This document shows, piece after piece, positions 4,261-41,395 of a DNA stretch of 41,395 nt. The first letter of the stretch is position 1, and every line of letters begins with the position of its first letter. The stretch is taken from contig JANWJE010000045.1 of the NCBI GenBank assembly GCA_025451995.1, positions 1-41,395 of the forward strand, read 5' to 3'. The position numbers were made by a program, and so were the translations under genes. The notes under the pieces were generated by a model that had not been told where the DNA came from, searched no databases, and saw nothing but the letters and a program-made list of their open reading frames with translations. Source of the stretch: Parachlamydiaceae bacterium. Lineage in GTDB: Bacteria; Chlamydiota; Chlamydiia; Chlamydiales; Parachlamydiaceae.

Positions 4261-4269
4261 CCAAATCTT

Positions 4270-4436
4270 AGAACCTGTTCAAAATCTCAGGGTTCGTCGC
4301 TTTTCGGGATTATTTTGGCCGCTTTTCGATTAAAATTTCAGGGGTTATATTGTCAATATTACCCCTGAAATTTTAATCGAAAAGCGGCTCAAAAGAACCC
4401 GAAAATCGACTGAACCTGAGATGCTGAACAGGTTCT
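4270..4436. repeat. Long palindromic repeat, family C (AGAACCTGTTCA ends)
   Basis: The element begins AGAACCTGTTCAAAATCTCA and ends with the complement TGAGATGCTGAACAGGTTCT. The inner arms GCCGCTTTTCGATTAAAATT and AATTTTAATCGAAAAGCGGC pair fully around a short AT-rich loop near 4350. A half copy of the end (AGAACCTGTTCAGAATC) lies at 19873-19890 on the stop codon of the porin gene. The element lies in the 388-base gap before lptD, and I see no gene in that gap. Confidence 0.9.
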
Positions 4437-4516
4437 TAAATAACCTTGCCAACATCGTTGGTTTGACGTAAACTCCCCTTCCCATAAACGTATATTACAC
4501 TTCTCATATTCGACAC

Positions 4517-7237: not shown

Positions 7238-8422
7238 ATGAATTCAATAATAAATTTTCCATATCAAAAATCTGAAAATAATCTAACATTATTACCTGAT
7301 GATGTTATGCAATTAACATTATCTTGTTTGCAAATAATAGATTTTAAAAACTTTATCAAAATCAACAAGAAAACTTGTTCTTTAATAAAAAAACCTCAAT
7401 TTAAAGCTATTCTTATAGAAGAAGAAGTATTTACATTCGTCAATAAAAATAGAAACGAGAAGCGAAATCACACTCTTTTTAATGAAAAGATTTTTTCGAA
7501 TGTAAAAAAAACAGGCTTGCATTTAAAAAAATTAAAGCTTTTGGCGAATCATCCAAATACCTCTGAAATTGAGAGAATCGATATTAAAACGAAAGAATTG
7601 TCTCAATTCTGTCCAAATATCCAAACTCTTCGCGTGGGTGCAACTGATCATTCTCATCCCCTATCGGATTTGTTTTTTTTAGTCCATTTTACATCATTAA
7701 AAAGCATTTCTATCTCTCATTCATTAACTGAATATACCTGTTCCCAAGTGTTGAACATTTCAAATTTAATCAAACTTGAACTTTTAGATTGCGACGACTT
7801 TAGAGAACAAAACTTTAAAGAGATTGGAAAATTGAACCGTCTGCGCTTTTTGCATTTGAATCGATGTGATAAAAATTTCAAACTTATTGACCTAGGTTCT
7901 TTGAAAGAATTGCAATTTTTAAAAATTGAAGGGCATCAATTAAAATTATCAGAGAGTGATGACTTAATCCCCATTTTTGGCAAGCTCCAAGGCTTTGATT
8001 TGTTTAGTCAAAAAACAAATAGCAGAAGTATTTTAGCTTTTTTAAAAAAACATCTAAATTTACATCATCTTTTTATAAATAGCGCTCGTTTATCCGACGA
8101 TGAAATCATATCTGTAGTAGAGCTTGAAACTTCTCTTCGGTCATTAAGCTTGAAAAATACGAGCACTATTCAAAAATTTACCATTATTGATGGCGTATGG
8201 GAATCTTTTGCACGTATGCTTCACTTAAAATCTTTAATTGTAGATATTGCAATTACAGAACGTCAACTAGAGTTGTTATCAAGTTCTACATCTCTAAAAT
8301 TGCTTGATGTTTCAAACTATGAGGTGGCAAAACCATATAAGTTTGCCATTCGGACTCTAACAAATGGCAATCGTCTTCTTTCACCAAATTTTGAGAATAT
8401 TTTTAACGCGAGTTTTGGATAA
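7238..8422 (+). CDS. F-box-like / leucine-rich-repeat protein (candidate host effector)
   Basis: The 394-residue protein starts with an F-box-like segment (LPDDVMQLTLSCLQIIDFKN, then INKKTCSLIKKPQFKAI, about residues 19-57). Irregular leucine-rich repeats follow from about residue 125 to the end (SLKSISISHS, LIKLELLDCDDF, RLRFLHLNRCD, LQFLKIEGHQL). F-box/LRR proteins recruit targets to eukaryotic SCF ubiquitin ligases, and amoeba symbionts encode many, so host ubiquitin subversion is the likely role by analogy. No signal peptide is seen. The last six residues (FNASFG) and the stop codon are encoded by the left end of the palindrome at 8405-8570, so the original C terminus may have been altered. 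It lies between pilus genes but is probably unrelated to them. Confidence 0.8.
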   Translation: MNSIINFPYQKSENNLTLLPDDVMQLTLSCLQIIDFKNFIKINKKTCSLIKKPQFKAILIEEEVFTFVNKNRNEKRNHTLFNEKIFSNVKKTGLHLKKLKLLANHPNTSEIERIDIKTKELSQFCPNIQTLRVGATDHSHPLSDLFFLVHFTSLKSISISHSLTEYTCSQVLNISNLIKLELLDCDDFREQNFKEIGKLNRLRFLHLNRCDKNFKLIDLGSLKELQFLKIEGHQLKLSESDDLIPIFGKLQGFDLFSQKTNSRSILAFLKKHLNLHHLFINSARLSDDEIISVVELETSLRSLSLKNTSTIQKFTIIDGVWESFARMLHLKSLIVDIAITERQLELLSSSTSLKLLDVSNYEVAKPYKFAIRTLTNGNRLLSPNFENIFNASFG

Positions 8423-8570
8423 GGAATGCAGCTCCTTCGAGAGAAATTTTCTTTCAGATTTGAAAATTTTTTCGAAGCCTATAGCCAAATGCCCTACAGG
8501 CGAGAAAAAATTTTCAAAGCTGGAAGAAAAGATCCTCGAAGGAGACCATTCCTTATCCAAAACTCGCGTA
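8405..8570. repeat. Long palindromic repeat, family D (AACGCGAGTTTTGGATAAGG)
   Basis: The terminal arms AACGCGAGTTTTGGATAAGG and CCTTATCCAAAACTCGCGTA pair, followed by further pairing of AAATTTTCTTTCAGATTTGA and the facing strand. A shorter copy in opposite relative orientation lies at 38923-39046. The element closes the LRR frame and ends four bases before the stop codon of the convergent secretin gene, so it may act as a two-way terminator. Confidence 0.9.
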
Positions 8571-31244: not shown

Positions 31245-31675
31245 AACGCAAAGATGCAAAGATGCAAAGCGGGCATCATAAGGAATATTTTATATAGATC
31301 GTGCTTCAAGATTTTGCCTAATGTTCCATCCAAAGCAAAAATTAACGATGGAAATGATGGAACGATATAATGATTGAACAAAAGAGTTTTAAATTAAAGA
31401 ACTGCCATCGATTGCGTGTGTTGGTGCCCTTTGAAAAAAGCACTGAATACGCTCAATGTCTAAGCTCAGTGGCTTTTTTTAAAGGACACCAACACACGCA
31501 ATCGAGAAACTTTCCTGGTTTGAGCTTTGCTCAAATCAGGATTTAAAAACCTTATCATTATATCGTTCAATCGTTATCATCGTTGATTTAACTGTGAGAT
31601 AAACTTTGTTTGGCAAACTTTTGAGTTTCTTGTGTATTATGCGCCTTTGCACCTTTGCGTTTAATTTATTATCTT
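31245..31675. repeat. Outer imperfect inverted repeat with GCAAAGATG units
   Basis: TTAACGCAAAGATGCAAAGATGC near 31254 is opposed by GCGCCTTTGCACCTTTGCGTTTAA near 31650, enclosing the hairpin element at 31337-31588. The left arm contains a nine-base tandem unit (GCAAAGATG). A related ACAAAGACACGAAGATAC string occurs at 31808-31828. The 700-base gap after rarA holds only this structure and the small frame at 31699. Confidence 0.65.
31337..31588. repeat. Multi-hairpin palindromic repeat, family G, copy 1
   Basis: The ends AATTAACGATG and CATCGTTGATT pair together with the flanking ACGATATAATGATTGAAC and its facing strand. Inside lie a strong stem CGATTGCGTGTGTTGG / CCAACACACGCAATCG (31409-31504) and a small hairpin CCTGGTTTGAGC / GCTCAAATCAGG. 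A second copy in opposite orientation lies at 41122-41395. Confidence 0.9.
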
Positions 31676-35077: not shown

Positions 35078-36421
35078 ATGAATTCATCATCTCTTGCAAA
35101 TCAAAAAAAGGCAAAAATCATTTTAGAGGACTATCCCTTCGAAAGAGATATTGAAATCAGAATATTTCTTTCACAGTTAAATACAACCGAAATTGACGTT
35201 CTGCGAGAAATTATCCATCATTCCCTTAAGATTTCTATCGAACAACTCGCTAATGAGCTGGGATTAACAACAAAACAAATCATCCCTATATTAGACAAAT
35301 TGGCGACAACTAAACTTTTCAAAAGACAACATCTATTGCTTATTGTCGATAAAGACTTAAGAAAATACTTTGAGTCTAAGATGGAAAAATTTGAAAATAA
35401 CTTCAAGCCAAATTTTCTTTTTTTACAAAATATTTTAAATAAAATCCCCATCCATTTATTGCCTCAATGGTATGCGCTTCCGAGGACAACTGATCATATT
35501 TTTGAAGCAATTATTGAGAAATATTTTTTAACTCCATCGATTTACCGACTCTACTTAAGCGAGCTTCAATTTGAAAATCCCCTTTTAAAGGCAATTATCC
35601 AAGAAGTCTTTCGCCCGCCAAATTTTTCTATCACTGTGGAAGAATTATTGGAAAAATTTAAAGAAATATCTCATGAGGACTTAGAAAAATATCTTTTACA
35701 ACTTGAATATCATTTTGTCTGCTGTTTAAGTTATAAAAACGAGGGGGACATCTGGAAGGAAGTGGTTACCCCATTTACGGAATGGGCAGAATTTTTAAAG
35801 TTTGAACATGCGCATAAACCAAAATCTATTCCAGAAGAAAAGATAAAAAAGGAATACGCAGATGAATTTTATTTTGTCAAACAACTCTCTGAAGCCCTCC
35901 ATCACTTTTCCAATAAAAAGCAAGAAGCAGGCAAGATCGATAAAGTGATTCAAAACAAACTTGTTCAACTTCAATTTGTTGAAGAAAAGGCTGCAGGAAA
36001 AATCGCTGCTACAAAAAAAGGCTTAGAGTGGCTTTCTAAACCCTTATATGAACAAATAACCACTCTTTCACATCATCCTTTGAATATTTTAAATGGTTTA
36101 GATCATTCTCATTTGTGGAATGCTCGCAATTTAAATTTAATAGAAAAGTCACTTAGGAGAATAGCCCCTAATCAGTGGGTGAGTTTAGAATCTTTTATTA
36201 CTGGAATGATCTTTCCAATCGGAGATCAAGAACCGGTATGCCTACAACAAAAGGGAAAGAATTGGCGGTATGTTTTGCCAGTTTATAATGATCTAGAGAA
36301 AAATTTTATAGAAAAAGTGATCATGGAAAGATTTGCTCAACTAGGAATCATTCAAACCGGTATGTACCAAAACCAGCCTTGTTTCTGTTTAACTCACTAT
36401 GGGCATCAAGCCATTCATTAG
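35078..36421 (+). CDS. Hypothetical winged-helix-like protein
   Basis: The 447-residue cytoplasmic protein begins with a helical region and a winged-helix-like segment (LREIIHHSLKISIEQLANEL, GLTTKQIIPILDKLATTKLF, residues 43-80). At least one more such segment is likely near residue 180-205 and near the C terminus (FIEKVIMERFAQLGIIQTGM). There is no signal peptide. I do not recognise the family. It sits between apbE and dnaN on the same strand, where Chlamydia, as I recall, has smpB. DNA binding or a replication link is only inference from the fold look and neighbours. Confidence 0.75.
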   Translation: MNSSSLANQKKAKIILEDYPFERDIEIRIFLSQLNTTEIDVLREIIHHSLKISIEQLANELGLTTKQIIPILDKLATTKLFKRQHLLLIVDKDLRKYFESKMEKFENNFKPNFLFLQNILNKIPIHLLPQWYALPRTTDHIFEAIIEKYFLTPSIYRLYLSELQFENPLLKAIIQEVFRPPNFSITVEELLEKFKEISHEDLEKYLLQLEYHFVCCLSYKNEGDIWKEVVTPFTEWAEFLKFEHAHKPKSIPEEKIKKEYADEFYFVKQLSEALHHFSNKKQEAGKIDKVIQNKLVQLQFVEEKAAGKIAATKKGLEWLSKPLYEQITTLSHHPLNILNGLDHSHLWNARNLNLIEKSLRRIAPNQWVSLESFITGMIFPIGDQEPVCLQQKGKNWRYVLPVYNDLEKNFIEKVIMERFAQLGIIQTGMYQNQPCFCLTHYGHQAIH

Positions 36422-36553: not shown

Positions 36554-37684
36554 ATGAAATTTGTCATTTCTACTCAAGAATTAAATTACCTCATCAACAA
36601 AATCCAGAATATTATCCCTCTTAAACCTACGGTCCCTATTCTAACAAATTTTTTGATTGAAGCATCCAAGGAGGGACTGACATTGACTGCTACTGACTTA
36701 ATGGTCGGTATTCGCTGCAATACAGAGGTTAACATTTTAGAAGAGGGGTCGACCACTCTTCCCGCAAAAAAATTAGGGCAGCTAGTGAGAGAATTGACAG
36801 CGGCCAATGTAGAGATTTCTTCAAATTCAAATCAAATCACCACTGTTATTTCAGGAACATCTAAGTTTAAATTAAATGGAATAGGGAAGAATGAATATCC
36901 TGCCTTGCCCGATTTATCGCAAGGATGTCAATTCAATATCAAACAAAAAATATTGAAAGATTTGCTCTATCGGACCTCTTTTGCTGTTTCTAAAGAAGAT
37001 AGTCGCTATATTCTAACAGGACTTTGCATGCAAATCTCCAATGGAGTCCTCACTTTTATTGGCACTGATGGTAAAAAGCTTTCACGAGCGCATGTTTCGA
37101 TTGCCATCCCCTCAGATGTTGTCAATCAATCGGTGATTCCTTTGAAAGCGGTCGATGAAATCGTTAAGAACTTGATAGAAGATGAAGACGAAGAAGCCAC
37201 CATTTCTTTGGCTGACGAAAAAATAGCAATGACTACGAGCCAAATAACAATCATTTCTAAGCTTTTATCAGGAGATTATCCTGACATCACACGAATCATT
37301 CCGGAAAAATCTACTTTTGAACTTTCCTTGCATCGAAATGAATTAATTTCACTCTTACGCCAAGTCTCCCTTTTTATTCCAGATCAAAATCACCCAGTAA
37401 AATTTACCTTTGTGAATGGGGAAATGAGTATCGCAGCAAATTCAATAGATCTCGGCGAAGGACATGTCGGTATGCCGGTCAATTATCATGGGGACACCTT
37501 AGAGATCGCACTTAATCCAAACTATTTTCTTGATATTTTACGCCATTGCAAAGAAGAAACAATTACTCTAGGCCTTACCGATTCCTATAATCCTGGCATT
37601 ATAAGGGATGGCGAGAATGTTGATCATTTAAGTCAATCGAGCCCTCTCTATCTCATTATGCCGATGCGCTTATCACAAGATTAA
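36554..37684 (+). CDS. dnaN: DNA polymerase III beta subunit (sliding clamp)
   Basis: The 376-residue protein is the ring clamp that holds polymerase III on DNA. It begins MKFVISTQELNYLINKIQNI and carries the three-domain pattern: LTATDLMVGIRCNT, KLGQLVRELTAANVEIS, DSRYILTGLCMQISNGVLTF with TDGKKLSRA, ISKLLSGDYPDITRIIPEKS, and the conserved C-terminal LYLIMPMRL that forms part of the protein-binding pocket. Length is normal. GGTGA precedes the ATG. The palindrome at 37686 begins directly after the TAA. Confidence 0.97.
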   Translation: MKFVISTQELNYLINKIQNIIPLKPTVPILTNFLIEASKEGLTLTATDLMVGIRCNTEVNILEEGSTTLPAKKLGQLVRELTAANVEISSNSNQITTVISGTSKFKLNGIGKNEYPALPDLSQGCQFNIKQKILKDLLYRTSFAVSKEDSRYILTGLCMQISNGVLTFIGTDGKKLSRAHVSIAIPSDVVNQSVIPLKAVDEIVKNLIEDEDEEATISLADEKIAMTTSQITIISKLLSGDYPDITRIIPEKSTFELSLHRNELISLLRQVSLFIPDQNHPVKFTFVNGEMSIAANSIDLGEGHVGMPVNYHGDTLEIALNPNYFLDILRHCKEETITLGLTDSYNPGIIRDGENVDHLSQSSPLYLIMPMRLSQD

Positions 37685-37685
37685 A

Positions 37686-37856
37686 GTATATACTGCTTCC
37701 AGCTGAATCTTGGACTTTTGGGCTAGCTTGAAAGCTCCCGCGGTTGAGAGATCGCAAGAGGTATAGTATTAAACAATACAATGCCTCTTGCGATCTCTCA
37801 ACCCCGGGGCTTTGAAACAGCCCAAAAGTCCAAGATTCAACTGGAAGAAGTATATG
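37686..37856. repeat. Family A palindrome filling the dnaN-recF gap
   Basis: Begins GTATATACTGCTTCCAGCTG one base after the dnaN stop and ends CTGGAAGAAGTATATG, where the final ATG is the recF start codon. Core and arms match 7-175 in the same orientation. The whole 169-base intergenic gap is the element. Confidence 0.93.
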
Positions 37857-38924
37857 TACCTTCAGTCTCTTTACTTATTGCAATTCCGCAATTATGGAGA
37901 ATGCACACTTGAATTCAATCCTTCTTTGAATGTCATTTGCGGTCCTAATGCTCAAGGAAAAACAACCCTATTAGAAGCGATTCACTACCTAATGTTTGGG
38001 AGATCCTTCCGTCCGGGTTTGCATCCGGAAATGATTAAGCTGGGGAGTCATTATTTTTATATTGAATCTATTTTTTCTAAACATCAAGTGGATCAGAAAC
38101 TTCGGCTCACTCAAGAGACAAAAGATCGTAAGATTTTTCACAATAGCACTCTTTTACCCAGCATCTCTCATTTACTTGGGCTTATTCAAGGGATAGTGAT
38201 GACCCCGGATGACATCAATCTGATCAAGGGAAGCCCACTCATGCGCCGTCAATTCCTCGATACTCAATTGGCTCAAATCGACCCCTTATATGTCCATTAT
38301 CTCACTCGCTTCGTAAAAGGGATGAGGCAGCGGAATCAATTATTAAGAGAGAAACAAACAGATACTCTTGGATGCTGGGAGGATGAAATGGCTCAAGCTG
38401 CAAGCTATATCATCAAACAAAGGCGTACATTAGTAGAGAAACTTCAAGCGAATTCCCAGGGGTTTTATCACTATTTAACGGGAGAAAAGGAATCGATCCA
38501 GCTTAATTATATGTCGAGTGCTTCCGAATGCAAGACTGCTGATGAAATCAAAATTTTTCATTTAAATGCGTATAAAAAAAACCGCCAAAGGGAAATGTTA
38601 ATCGGTCATACCCTCATTGGCCCCCATAAAGATGACATTCGTATTTTAATTGGGGGAAAAGATAGCCGTTTTTATGCAAGCGAGGGACAGCAACGAAGCT
38701 GCGTTGCTGCATTGCATATTGGTAAATGGCATCATCTGAAAGAAAATTGCAATGAGACTCCCCTCTTTATGATTGATGACGTATGCATGAGTCTAGACAA
38801 TCAACGGAGAAGCCGTTTACTCGAACAACTCGAGTCGCTCGGCCAAGTTTTCTTAACAACAACAGAGAGCGATTTAGCTCAATCGTTCTCCGGTGCTAAA
38901 AAAGTATTCTCATTACCTATTTAA
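37854..38924 (+). CDS. recF: DNA replication and repair protein RecF
   Basis: The 356-residue SMC-like ATPase helps load RecA at gapped DNA. It starts MYLQSLYLLQFRNYGECTLE and has Walker A GPNAQGKTTLLEAIH, the RecF pattern FRPGLHPEMI, GPHKDDIRI, the signature SEGQQRSCVAALHIGKW, and Walker B PLFMIDDVCMSLD. An in-frame extension upstream to 37788 is encoded by the palindrome and is rejected. GGAAGAAG in the repeat arm, just before the ATG, could serve as the ribosome binding site. The TAA stop is completed by the first bases of the repeat at 38923. Confidence 0.96.
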   Translation: MYLQSLYLLQFRNYGECTLEFNPSLNVICGPNAQGKTTLLEAIHYLMFGRSFRPGLHPEMIKLGSHYFYIESIFSKHQVDQKLRLTQETKDRKIFHNSTLLPSISHLLGLIQGIVMTPDDINLIKGSPLMRRQFLDTQLAQIDPLYVHYLTRFVKGMRQRNQLLREKQTDTLGCWEDEMAQAASYIIKQRRTLVEKLQANSQGFYHYLTGEKESIQLNYMSSASECKTADEIKIFHLNAYKKNRQREMLIGHTLIGPHKDDIRILIGGKDSRFYASEGQQRSCVAALHIGKWHHLKENCNETPLFMIDDVCMSLDNQRRSRLLEQLESLGQVFLTTTESDLAQSFSGAKKVFSLPI

Positions 38925-39046
38925 CGCGAGTTTTGGATAAGGAATGGTCTCCTTCGAGGATCTTTTCTTCCAGCTTCGAAAAAATTTTCAAATCTGAAAA
39001 AAAATCTCTCTCGAATGAGCTGCATTCCTTATCCAAAACTCGCGTT
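38923..39046. repeat. Long palindromic repeat, family D, second copy
   Basis: AACGCGAGTTTTGGATAAGG pairs with CCTTATCCAAAACTCGCGTT at the ends. The arms are closely related to those of 8405-8570, but left and right are swapped, and the central part of about 30 bases present there is missing. The element lies between the convergent recF and the gene at 39055. Confidence 0.9.
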
Positions 39047-39054
39047 ATTTAAAT

Positions 39055-40911
39055 CTAAAGGTCAAATATTGCAGATAACCTTTGCGAAGAATTAAATTTG
39101 TTCATTTCTTCATGTAAATTCCCCAAATTCATACCAATAGGAGAAATCAATTGCCTATAAATTTTTAAACGTGAGTTTTCCTTATACTCATTTTGTGCAT
39201 AAGCGAAAGTCTCATCAAGAGTGCAATTTTTTCGCATCTCACCTAAGTAAAATAACTTTTCGGTATGAACTTTATCCAAAATATCAAATAACAATTGCCC
39301 TTTCTCCGGAATAATGGAATGACTGGGTAATTGCTTGATCAATGCTTGTATTAAACCATAATTAGATTTAATTTTAAGAAGGAGAGACCTCTTTGCGCTC
39401 TCTTTTGACTGTTGATTAAAAAATGCGATCCGATATGCAATCAATGAAGTCTCAGGAAATTGTTCTGCAATATTTAAAGCCGTAACAATTTCAAGAATTT
39501 CCTCTGCTTTCTTTACATTAAAATAAATGGATAAGGGATTTAAATGAAGAAATGCTTTTTCAAATAAAAATGGCGATTGCTTACTCCCTTCTTGGGTATA
39601 TTTATTTAGCTTTTCCATCGCCTGATCTTCTAACCCATTATTAATTAGCAATTTAATTAAAATAAGCTCAAAAGCTCTAAGTTCTTTTAAATTTTTAAAG
39701 CTTTCATTATCAAATAAATATTGAAGAGTTCCAAGTGCTTCATCTATTTCTCCCCCACGGATTAAAAAATAGAGATACTGTTCAATTTTTAAACAATTCA
39801 AAGGGTCATCATTTAAAAGAGATTGGTATTCTTGTTTTAAAAGAGAGTATGATTTTAATTGAAGGGCCTCATCATAGACTAAAGAATATGAAGTAAGAGT
39901 TTGCGTGCCCTTTTGAAAACCTTTTGTTTTTTTACGTAAAAAATCTTCATTCCTCAACAGAAACTCTTTAGAAATTTTATATAAAAATTGGGCATCTCCT
40001 AAATCAATAGACAACTTTTCCAATTCATTCAGTGCAAAATTAAATTCTTTTACTTCTAAATTTTCAACGATGCAAGTTTCTAATAAGTTAAAATATTGAT
40101 CTTTATTTTTATCGTTTAATAAATAGGCAAACTTTGCAAGTGTAATAAGAAATTTAATTTTAATTACAGGATCGAAGGCTATTTGTTTATAATAATTATT
40201 TTGAAAAAATTGTGTCAAATTTGATTTTACTGGAAATTCACTTAAAAGATTTTTTCTAGTTGGTTGTTTTAACTGTAACAAAAATTTAATCTCTAGATGA
40301 TGCAGGTGATCTGCTCTAAAATGACCGGAAGTTTCAAAGTATCTCATATATAAGTTTAAAAAAGCAGCAGCTTCTTCTAATTTATTTTCTGCTTCATGGA
40401 ATAAAAGATACCATTCTAAAAATTCATAAGGTCTCCAGTAAAAGGCAACGGAGTTTGCTTTTTCCCTAAATTGTTTTAAAAGCTCTCTTGAATGTTCAGG
40501 TTCGCCTTGAATCCAGAATTTCTTAGCTAATACAATTGTGTCTTTCAATTCTTTCGTTAGATCTTCTAATGAAGCTTGTGATGTATCCTTCGATTGAAGT
40601 AAAGATTGGCTACTCTCAATAATTTTTGAAGTCACTTGAGGCCGTGTTTTTGAAAATTGCTGCAAAGCGAATTCTTTTTCCTCAAATTTTTGTTCACATG
40701 AAGGTTGAAATTTAGATTGGGGAAAGTAGAAATGAACCGCTGCTGAAACTTTGGTTTCTTTTAAAATTTTCACCGAGCTATTGCTATACTGCCTGGGGGT
40801 TTCATTGGAATATTCTTTAGTCTCATTCTCATCCTTTAAAAGATCTTTTGGTAAATACCACCCTGTGCCTTGTTGGAAGTTTAAATTTGTTAAAGAATGA
40901 GTAAAAAACAT
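39055..40911 (-). CDS. Large hypothetical helical-repeat (TPR-like) protein
   Basis: I do not recognise this 618-residue protein by name. After a polar N-terminal region of about 110 residues it is almost wholly helical, with TPR-like pairs: AKKFWIQGEPEHSRELLKQF, WYLLFHEAENKLEEAAAFLN, LLNDDPLNCLKIEQYLYFLI, GGEIDEALGTLQYLFDNE and LINNGLEDQAMEKLNKYT. There is no signal peptide or membrane helix. TPR-like proteins are often scaffolds or secretion chaperones, but there is no direct evidence here. The coding DNA is AT-rich like the orphan genes. It is convergent with recF, separated by a family D palindrome. Confidence 0.75.
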   Translation of the reverse strand: MFFTHSLTNLNFQQGTGWYLPKDLLKDENETKEYSNETPRQYSNSSVKILKETKVSAAVHFYFPQSKFQPSCEQKFEEKEFALQQFSKTRPQVTSKIIESSQSLLQSKDTSQASLEDLTKELKDTIVLAKKFWIQGEPEHSRELLKQFREKANSVAFYWRPYEFLEWYLLFHEAENKLEEAAAFLNLYMRYFETSGHFRADHLHHLEIKFLLQLKQPTRKNLLSEFPVKSNLTQFFQNNYYKQIAFDPVIKIKFLITLAKFAYLLNDKNKDQYFNLLETCIVENLEVKEFNFALNELEKLSIDLGDAQFLYKISKEFLLRNEDFLRKKTKGFQKGTQTLTSYSLVYDEALQLKSYSLLKQEYQSLLNDDPLNCLKIEQYLYFLIRGGEIDEALGTLQYLFDNESFKNLKELRAFELILIKLLINNGLEDQAMEKLNKYTQEGSKQSPFLFEKAFLHLNPLSIYFNVKKAEEILEIVTALNIAEQFPETSLIAYRIAFFNQQSKESAKRSLLLKIKSNYGLIQALIKQLPSHSIIPEKGQLLFDILDKVHTEKLFYLGEMRKNCTLDETFAYAQNEYKENSRLKIYRQLISPIGMNLGNLHEEMNKFNSSQRLSAIFDL

Positions 40912-41121
40912 TTTTATAATCCTAATGTAAATTATTATTTAAATTTCTTGTTTTATTAATATATCAAATACAACAAAAAACAAACAATACTAAACAAAAT
41001 TATAAAAATTTAAATTTAAAATTTACTATTAGTAAACAAATTTTTTATTACTAACTTTATACACAAAAAAGTTCAACAGTTTGATAAAAACCATGATAAA
41101 AACAAGAGTTTGCCGTGCAGA

Positions 41122-41395
41122 AAAATCAACGATGGAAATGATGAAACGATATAACGATAAGGTTTTTAAATATTTTTAAACCTCTCATGCTTTGATCAAA
41201 GATCAAAGCATGAGAATTTCACGATTGCGTGCGTTGGCGCCCTTTGAAAAAAGCAACCAAACTTAGACATTGAGCATATTCAGTGCTTTTTTCAAAGGGC
41301 ACCAACGCACGCAATCGATGGTCTTTTGTTCAATCATTATATCGTTCCATCATTTCCATCGTTAATTTTTGCTTTGGAAGGAACTTTCATTAGGC
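41122..41395. repeat. Multi-hairpin palindromic repeat, family G, copy 2 (runs to window edge)
   Basis: The inverse of the element at 31337-31588: ends AAATCAACGATGG and CCATCGTTAATTTT, main stem CGATTGCGTGCGTTGG / CCAACGCACGCAATCG (41222-41317), and side hairpin CTCATGCTTTGATC / GATCAAAGCATGAG (41183-41214). The flank beyond it (GCTTTGGAAGGAAC ... TTAGGC) also matches the flank of copy 1. The preceding 210 bases after the TPR-like gene are AT-rich with no gene seen. Confidence 0.9.

Follow-up and report, generated by a model that had tools for sequence, protein, structure and literature searches.

A palindrome between dnaN and recF of an environmental chlamydia as a probable insertion of a high-copy palindromic MITE

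The window, i.e., the whole analysed stretch of 41,395 nt (contig JANWJE010000045.1 of a Parachlamydiaceae bacterium), carries the DNA polymerase III beta clamp gene dnaN followed on the same strand by recF (Table 1). The gap between the two genes is occupied by a near-perfect palindrome (37688-37855), which overlaps the recF ATG. It consists of two nested inverted repeats forming a single stem-loop (37686-37856), with outer arms of 37 nt (37688-37724/37819-37855, 95% complementary) and inner arms of 34 nt (37737-37770/37775-37808, 91% complementary). The minimum free energy predicted for the RNA of 37660-37900 equals -132.2 kcal/mol versus a shuffled mean of -55.4 (sd 4.6, z -16.8), and 0 of 200 shuffles fold as well. 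According to the initial annotation, a strong hairpin fills the dnaN-recF gap, begins one base after the dnaN stop and ends with the three bases of the recF ATG. The extent of the palindrome and its fold bear out the filled gap, and a single base (37685) indeed separates the stop codon from the annotated start of the element at 37686. As for the ATG, its A and T lie inside the palindrome, but the G falls outside, since pairing ends at 37855; with the boundaries derived below from TA duplication, the right TA takes only the A. The sequence GGAAGAAG in the right arm is, as annotated, the only visible candidate for a ribosome site, and the hairpin covers both this candidate and the start codon.

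Table 1. Features of the dnaN-recF region and related copies in the window
Feature	Coordinates	Strand	Details and basis
Second copy, same subfamily, at contig start	6..176	+	91% identical
Copy of a second subfamily (ends TATACCGAAACAA), same core, opposite polarity	25653..25819	-	Sequence comparison
dnaN (DNA polymerase III beta clamp)	36554..37684	+	376 aa, stop TAA 37682-37684; Pfam DNA_pol3_beta domains, ORF
Left TA, inferred target duplication	37689..37690		Boundaries from 5 own-genome tandem junctions
Palindromic MITE, TAC...GTA, core motif polarity +	37691..37852	+	Own-genome matches, structure
Conserved core hairpin (model R1), conserved bulges and mismatches	37716..37828	+	Alignment, pair counts, CM search
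Left core motif GAAAGCTCCCGCGGTT	37730..37745	+	Sequence pattern
Right core motif AACCCCGGGGCTTTG	37800..37814	+	Sequence pattern
GGAAGAAG, possible ribosome site, right arm	37843..37850	+	Sequence
Right TA, inferred target duplication	37853..37854		Contributes the A of the recF ATG
recF	37854..38924	+	356 aa, ATG 37854-37856; Pfam SMC_N/AAA_23; start conserved in relatives

Two large frames with no Pfam match (447 and 618 aa) lie beside dnaN-recF at 35078-36421 and 39055-40911. Inverted repeats of at least 20 nt are found in 10 of the 21 window gaps of at least 50 bases, and in 0 of 21 after shuffling. The palindromic repeats at 8406-8569 and 38922-39047 belong to another family, with arms ACGCGAGTTTTGGATAAGGAATG that are 100% complementary; each follows a gene, the second lying directly after recF. 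The window also contains two copies of a larger nested palindrome (31339-31589 and 41121-41370; outer arms AAATTAACGATGGAAATGATG, inner arms CGATTGCGTGCGTTGG) and an inverted repeat with 88-nt arms and one base between them (4265-4441).

A 173-base query finds at least 40 copies of the dnaN-recF palindrome at 91-100% identity in the 2.94 Mb (142 contigs) of its own genome: of 234 candidates, 40 were scored and all of them matched. Only some candidates per genome were scored in these searches (40, 17, or 25), so the counts are lower bounds. The terminal 20-mer with at most 3 mismatches has 251 matches in the genome versus 0 for the reversed-pattern control, and thus the true copy number may be near 125. 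The element is an inverted repeat of ~165 bp (copies of 162-168 bp) that encodes no protein and is dispersed, mostly between predicted ORFs. Being short, non-coding and multi-copy, with terminal inverted repeats that have constant ends and with a target-site duplication, it has the properties of a MITE. Several contigs end within a copy, and the contig of the window itself begins at one, which indicates that these repeats broke the assembly. As far as sequence can tell, the dnaN-recF palindrome is one of many such copies and not a device of recF.

The ends common to the copies are TATAC...GTATA, with A as the usual outer base at the left end and T at the right end. In all 5 tandem junctions (L084, L085, L086, L091, and L106) the neighbouring copies share exactly one TA, which argues for an element TAC...GTA that duplicates TA; the duplication is read from these tandem junctions, as in single copies it is indistinguishable from palindromic ends. 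Under the same reading, the copy at recF is 162 bp long, and the empty site is TAA-AGTAT-ATG (stop, five bases, start).

The gap was also compared in relatives, all of them from other genera rather than close strains, the nearest having a RecF 62% identical. Among 30 RecF loci (own and 29 relatives) dnaN lies upstream in 29, and both genes are present in 28 relatives. The distance from dnaN to the aligned RecF start is 0-17 nt in 20 of these 28 (e.g., TAA-AG-ATG), 31-62 nt in 5, and 161-252 nt in 3 (L047, L052, and L061). The longest gaps hold other inserted sequence, mostly unrelated, that of L061 being strongly palindromic, and the gap thus appears to have received inserts more than once. 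One further locus (L065) has no dnaN in the ~400 bases upstream of recF, but a same-core element is found there. The recF start residue is ATG in 23 of 29 relatives and GTG in 1, and 5 have no start at this position; a RecF starting at a conserved upstream codon was not seen. The annotated ATG at 37854 is therefore upheld as the likely start of recF. Together, the short gaps and the ATG at the same residue indicate that the start codon is old and that the hairpin is young and was inserted beside it.

Elements of other genomes align with the own ones in the inner region only, apart from those of G004, which match from end to end. According to an alignment of 18 elements, the inner ~113 nt have the form GAAAGCTCCCGCGGTT-N~54-AACCCCGGGGCTTTG with nearly fixed motifs, while the inner stem and the outer arms vary freely without losing their complementarity (92% of cells paired). 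Changes on both sides are observed for 29 of 50 pairs, with a covariation score of 0.421 versus 0.148 for shuffled alignments (0 of 500 shuffles). Certain interruptions of the core recur from element to element: one bulge and one bulged T, a G.G and usually also a C.C mismatch, and, before the apex, a 1x1 mismatch. The covariance model matches 51 of 151 Chlamydiota genomes including the own one (43 of 132 of good quality); it can score one place on both strands, so its match counts are up to twofold high. No core match was found among the genomes listed for genus g35 (1.0-1.2 Mb). The exact two-part core pattern, searched in 84,980 species, is present in at least 75 stretches, all chlamydial when two mislabelled genomes are allowed for. 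The motif is present in the 25 loci that were read (L129-L153), with 0-6 mismatches of 31 in 23 of them and 10 mismatches in two. Viral contigs have 0 exact core patterns, and plasmids gave no match. As for the two genomes in question (L175-L177 and L182), they are titled Verrucomicrobia SZAS-4 and Acidobacteria BOG_genome_mining.12; their DnaN proteins are 52% and 51% identical to the own one, respectively, and hence both look chlamydial and were read as mislabelled.

According to their ends, 110 distinct elements are divided into 38 with TATAC (TA-type), 20 with CTAGTRC, 14 of TNA-type, 28 other, and 10 without flank. TNA-type elements start with GG and have identical 3-base duplications in 10 of 14 cases; the remaining 4 are without identical 3-base flanks, at least one of them through misparsed ends. 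Total length is ~160-171 bp for most elements across the end classes, and a single genome (JABDEO) carries all three kinds of ends. Inner stems go with end types, which suggests old subfamilies rather than recent swaps. That end swaps do happen is nevertheless shown by two hybrids of the own genome (L094 and L096), in each of which a single core lies between one type-A and one type-B end. At L099 (1060-1440) a second element with ends GAGGCTGTGAAAA...TTTTCACAGCCTC lies inside the core of a copy, and its flanks read as a 3-base duplication TGA.

Regarding mobilisation, the own draft genome yielded no IS630 transposase (DDE_3, PF13358), and for DDE_Tnp_1 it contains one 73-aa scrap only. PF13358 is present in 10 of 28 genomes, a set that includes the own one. 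A relative carries a 1283-bp IS630-type transposon (L111) that has the ends TATACCGAACGTGATTCAAAAATTGG and is flanked by TA at either end; its open frame spans 353 codons, and the 352 aa scanned match DDE_3 (E 2.4e-32). The better end of L111 agrees at 27 of 28 bases with both ends of a core-bearing MITE from another genome (L039/L163) and at 21-22 of 28 with the own type-B ends; by comparison, the 685 28-mers of the fetched loci that begin with TATAC mostly score 9-15. The type-A ends of the recF copy differ from those of L111. In search of an autonomous element with type-A or CTAG ends, end pairs 400-3000 bp apart were sought in the fetched loci, and L111 was the one convincing transposon among the pairs inspected (L111, L161, and L016). 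The L161 pair was rejected as an autonomous transposon, since between its ends lie MITE copies and a 276-aa frame that is unrelated.

Based on these results, the palindrome very probably represents one copy of a high-copy non-autonomous palindromic MITE, which inserted into a TA that lay between dnaN and recF in an environmental chlamydia. The repeat family, its termini, the single TA in tandem copies, the short gap of relatives, and the ancestral ATG are the parts of this account that are read from sequence itself. The ancestral gap would have been ~5 nt long, with the recF ATG already present before the insertion. An IS630/Tc1-mariner-type transposase would have moved the element in trans, as suggested by the transposon of a relative, the ends of which match those of a sister subfamily, and any consequence for recF would be incidental.

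Two other explanations tie the palindrome to the expression of recF. A dedicated cis-regulatory RNA hairpin, sequestering the ribosome site and thereby controlling recF translation, would agree with the very stable fold, with the largely paired SD-AUG region in it, and with a C-to-A change, private to this right arm, that creates the purine tract: among the 29 arms scored, the same site reads GGAAGCAG in 22, GGAAGGAG in 6, and GGAAGAAG in the recF copy alone, a form that could be due to chance or adaptation. The same element, however, stands at 40 or more unrelated places, and most relatives lack it between dnaN and recF. Its core polarity relative to the upstream gene is the same in 16 copies and opposite in 16 (32 of 36, tallied by hand on mechanically called ORFs, with the 4 copies that have no upstream ORF left out). 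Of the translational control proposed in the initial annotation, the geometry thus stands, as the ribosome site and the start are largely paired in the predicted fold, but the hairpin is a dispersed mobile repeat not specific to recF, and a dedicated regulator is rather unlikely. The second proposal, that the hairpin separates recF from dnaN transcription, found no support. That a strong, GC-containing hairpin immediately follows a stop codon would suit an intrinsic terminator; however, there is no U tract, 0 terminator-like sites are found in 37600-37950, and the orientation is independent of the genes. A terminator, which takes a hairpin together with a U tract, was therefore rejected, and we regard it as very improbable here.

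The remaining explanations concern the family as a whole. In the case of a REP/RAYT-type repeat, a Y1 (IS200/IS605-like) transposase would move the element by acting on its single-stranded hairpin, the mismatches of which give it polarity. This is suggested by the conserved asymmetric mismatches, which confer strand polarity, and by two Y1_Tnp genes in the own genome. Neither of these genes, however, has element ends or the core nearby within the fetched loci, and a Y1/REP origin was rejected since no repeats flank them; moreover, TA or TNA duplications and inverted termini fit DDE transposition. Polarity with respect to the replication strand could be judged for G077 (two contigs), G135 offering too few places; by eye, core polarity alternates along the G077 chromosome instead of falling into two arcs, which speaks against a replication-strand rule. 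A REP/RAYT repeat is given very little probability. If the family were a conserved non-coding RNA gene multiplied by duplication, the covariation described above would be accounted for. RNA of one strand should favour G.U, however, whereas in a DNA palindrome G.T and A.C should be equally common, and arm mismatches in other genomes are 107 G.T versus 111 A.C (79 versus 93 in outer and 28 versus 18 in inner arms). The outer arms of the own genome show the opposite trend (53 G.T versus 14 A.C), which may represent one inherited site counted in many copies and is given little weight, because related copies share sites. No Rfam match reaches the gathering threshold (0 in the window), and permissive matches are mainly eukaryotic microRNA precursors, as expected of any long hairpin. 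An RNA gene family is accordingly judged distinctly unlikely. From the even polarity counts, the balanced G.T and A.C mismatches, and the alternation on G077 we conclude that the palindrome is probably kept mainly as DNA.

As for the consequences of the MITE insertion for recF, most of the GGAAGAAG...AUG segment is paired in the free predicted fold. If the presence of a ribosome at the dnaN stop is mimicked by keeping everything up to 37697 open, the AUG is predicted to be almost fully unpaired and the purine tract to remain largely paired. If transcribed from dnaN, the element may well affect recF, yet the effect could be mild, because a ribosome finishing at the dnaN stop is predicted to reopen the AUG. 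The hairpin would break the close stop-start spacing and cover the AUG; at the same time, the base of the hairpin would be opened by a ribosome that ends on dnaN, and the hairpin would itself keep stop and start close in space, so that coupling may partly survive. Judging from these predicted folds, the insertion most likely weakens dnaN-recF coupling and need not abolish it.

Rickettsia palindromic elements (RPEs) are known for in-frame insertion inside genes, whereas the chlamydial copies lie mostly between predicted ORFs. A MITE review (PMC10969869) describes RPEs as palindromic repeats of ~150 bp in an obligate intracellular bacterium, in which they resemble the chlamydial element. Correia elements (CREE/NEMIS) of Neisseria are described as multi-copy MITEs of 107-155 or 204 bp with TIRs, TA termini, and hairpin transcripts (PMC10969869, PMC2229807); the chlamydial element resembles them as a small multi-copy MITE with TIRs, TA at the termini, and a long hairpin, usually beside genes. 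Compared by description and not by sequence, it differs in being wholly a near-perfect hairpin and in its asymmetric core common to subfamilies with different ends; the promoter, IHF, or RNase III roles in these descriptions belong to the Correia side of the comparison. RUP of Streptococcus pneumoniae is likewise non-autonomous, targets TA, has ends that resemble IS630-Spn1, and is thought to be moved in trans (PMC2229807). In the chlamydial case the IS630-like match is through sister-subfamily ends and the matching IS630 (L111) is in another genome, and the passages on RUP report no internal conserved motif. IS630/Tc1-mariner elements such as ISY100 insert into TA and duplicate it (PMC2170065), in agreement with the TA insertion and duplication proposed here and with the matching ends of L111; in contrast, the window element encodes no protein. 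By analogy, the chlamydial element would work like Correia elements and RUP. The string "Chlamyd" is absent from the text of the MITE review (PMC10969869), the main text of a Rhabdochlamydia genome paper (PMC9723776) discusses transposases and contains neither "palindrom" nor "MITE", and no description of the chlamydial element was found in the literature searched. The element is of a known kind, a MITE, and what is new is the superfamily with its unusual conserved core.

Tentatively, the core and not the transposase ends could be the unit selected, as a structured DNA (or RNA) signal for a common chlamydial factor with ends exchanged around it. Put differently, and with the same reserve, one fold-defined, strand-polar core would be kept across Chlamydiota and carried by at least two transposition chemistries (TA and TNA). 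With the insertion reading, what looked like a regulator of recF becomes an element inserted into a conserved pair of replication and repair genes, and a phylum-wide hairpin family helps explain the fragmented assemblies of environmental chlamydiae. The polar core common to elements with different ends poses the question of which factor would recognise a hairpin that conserves its mismatches more strictly than its arms.
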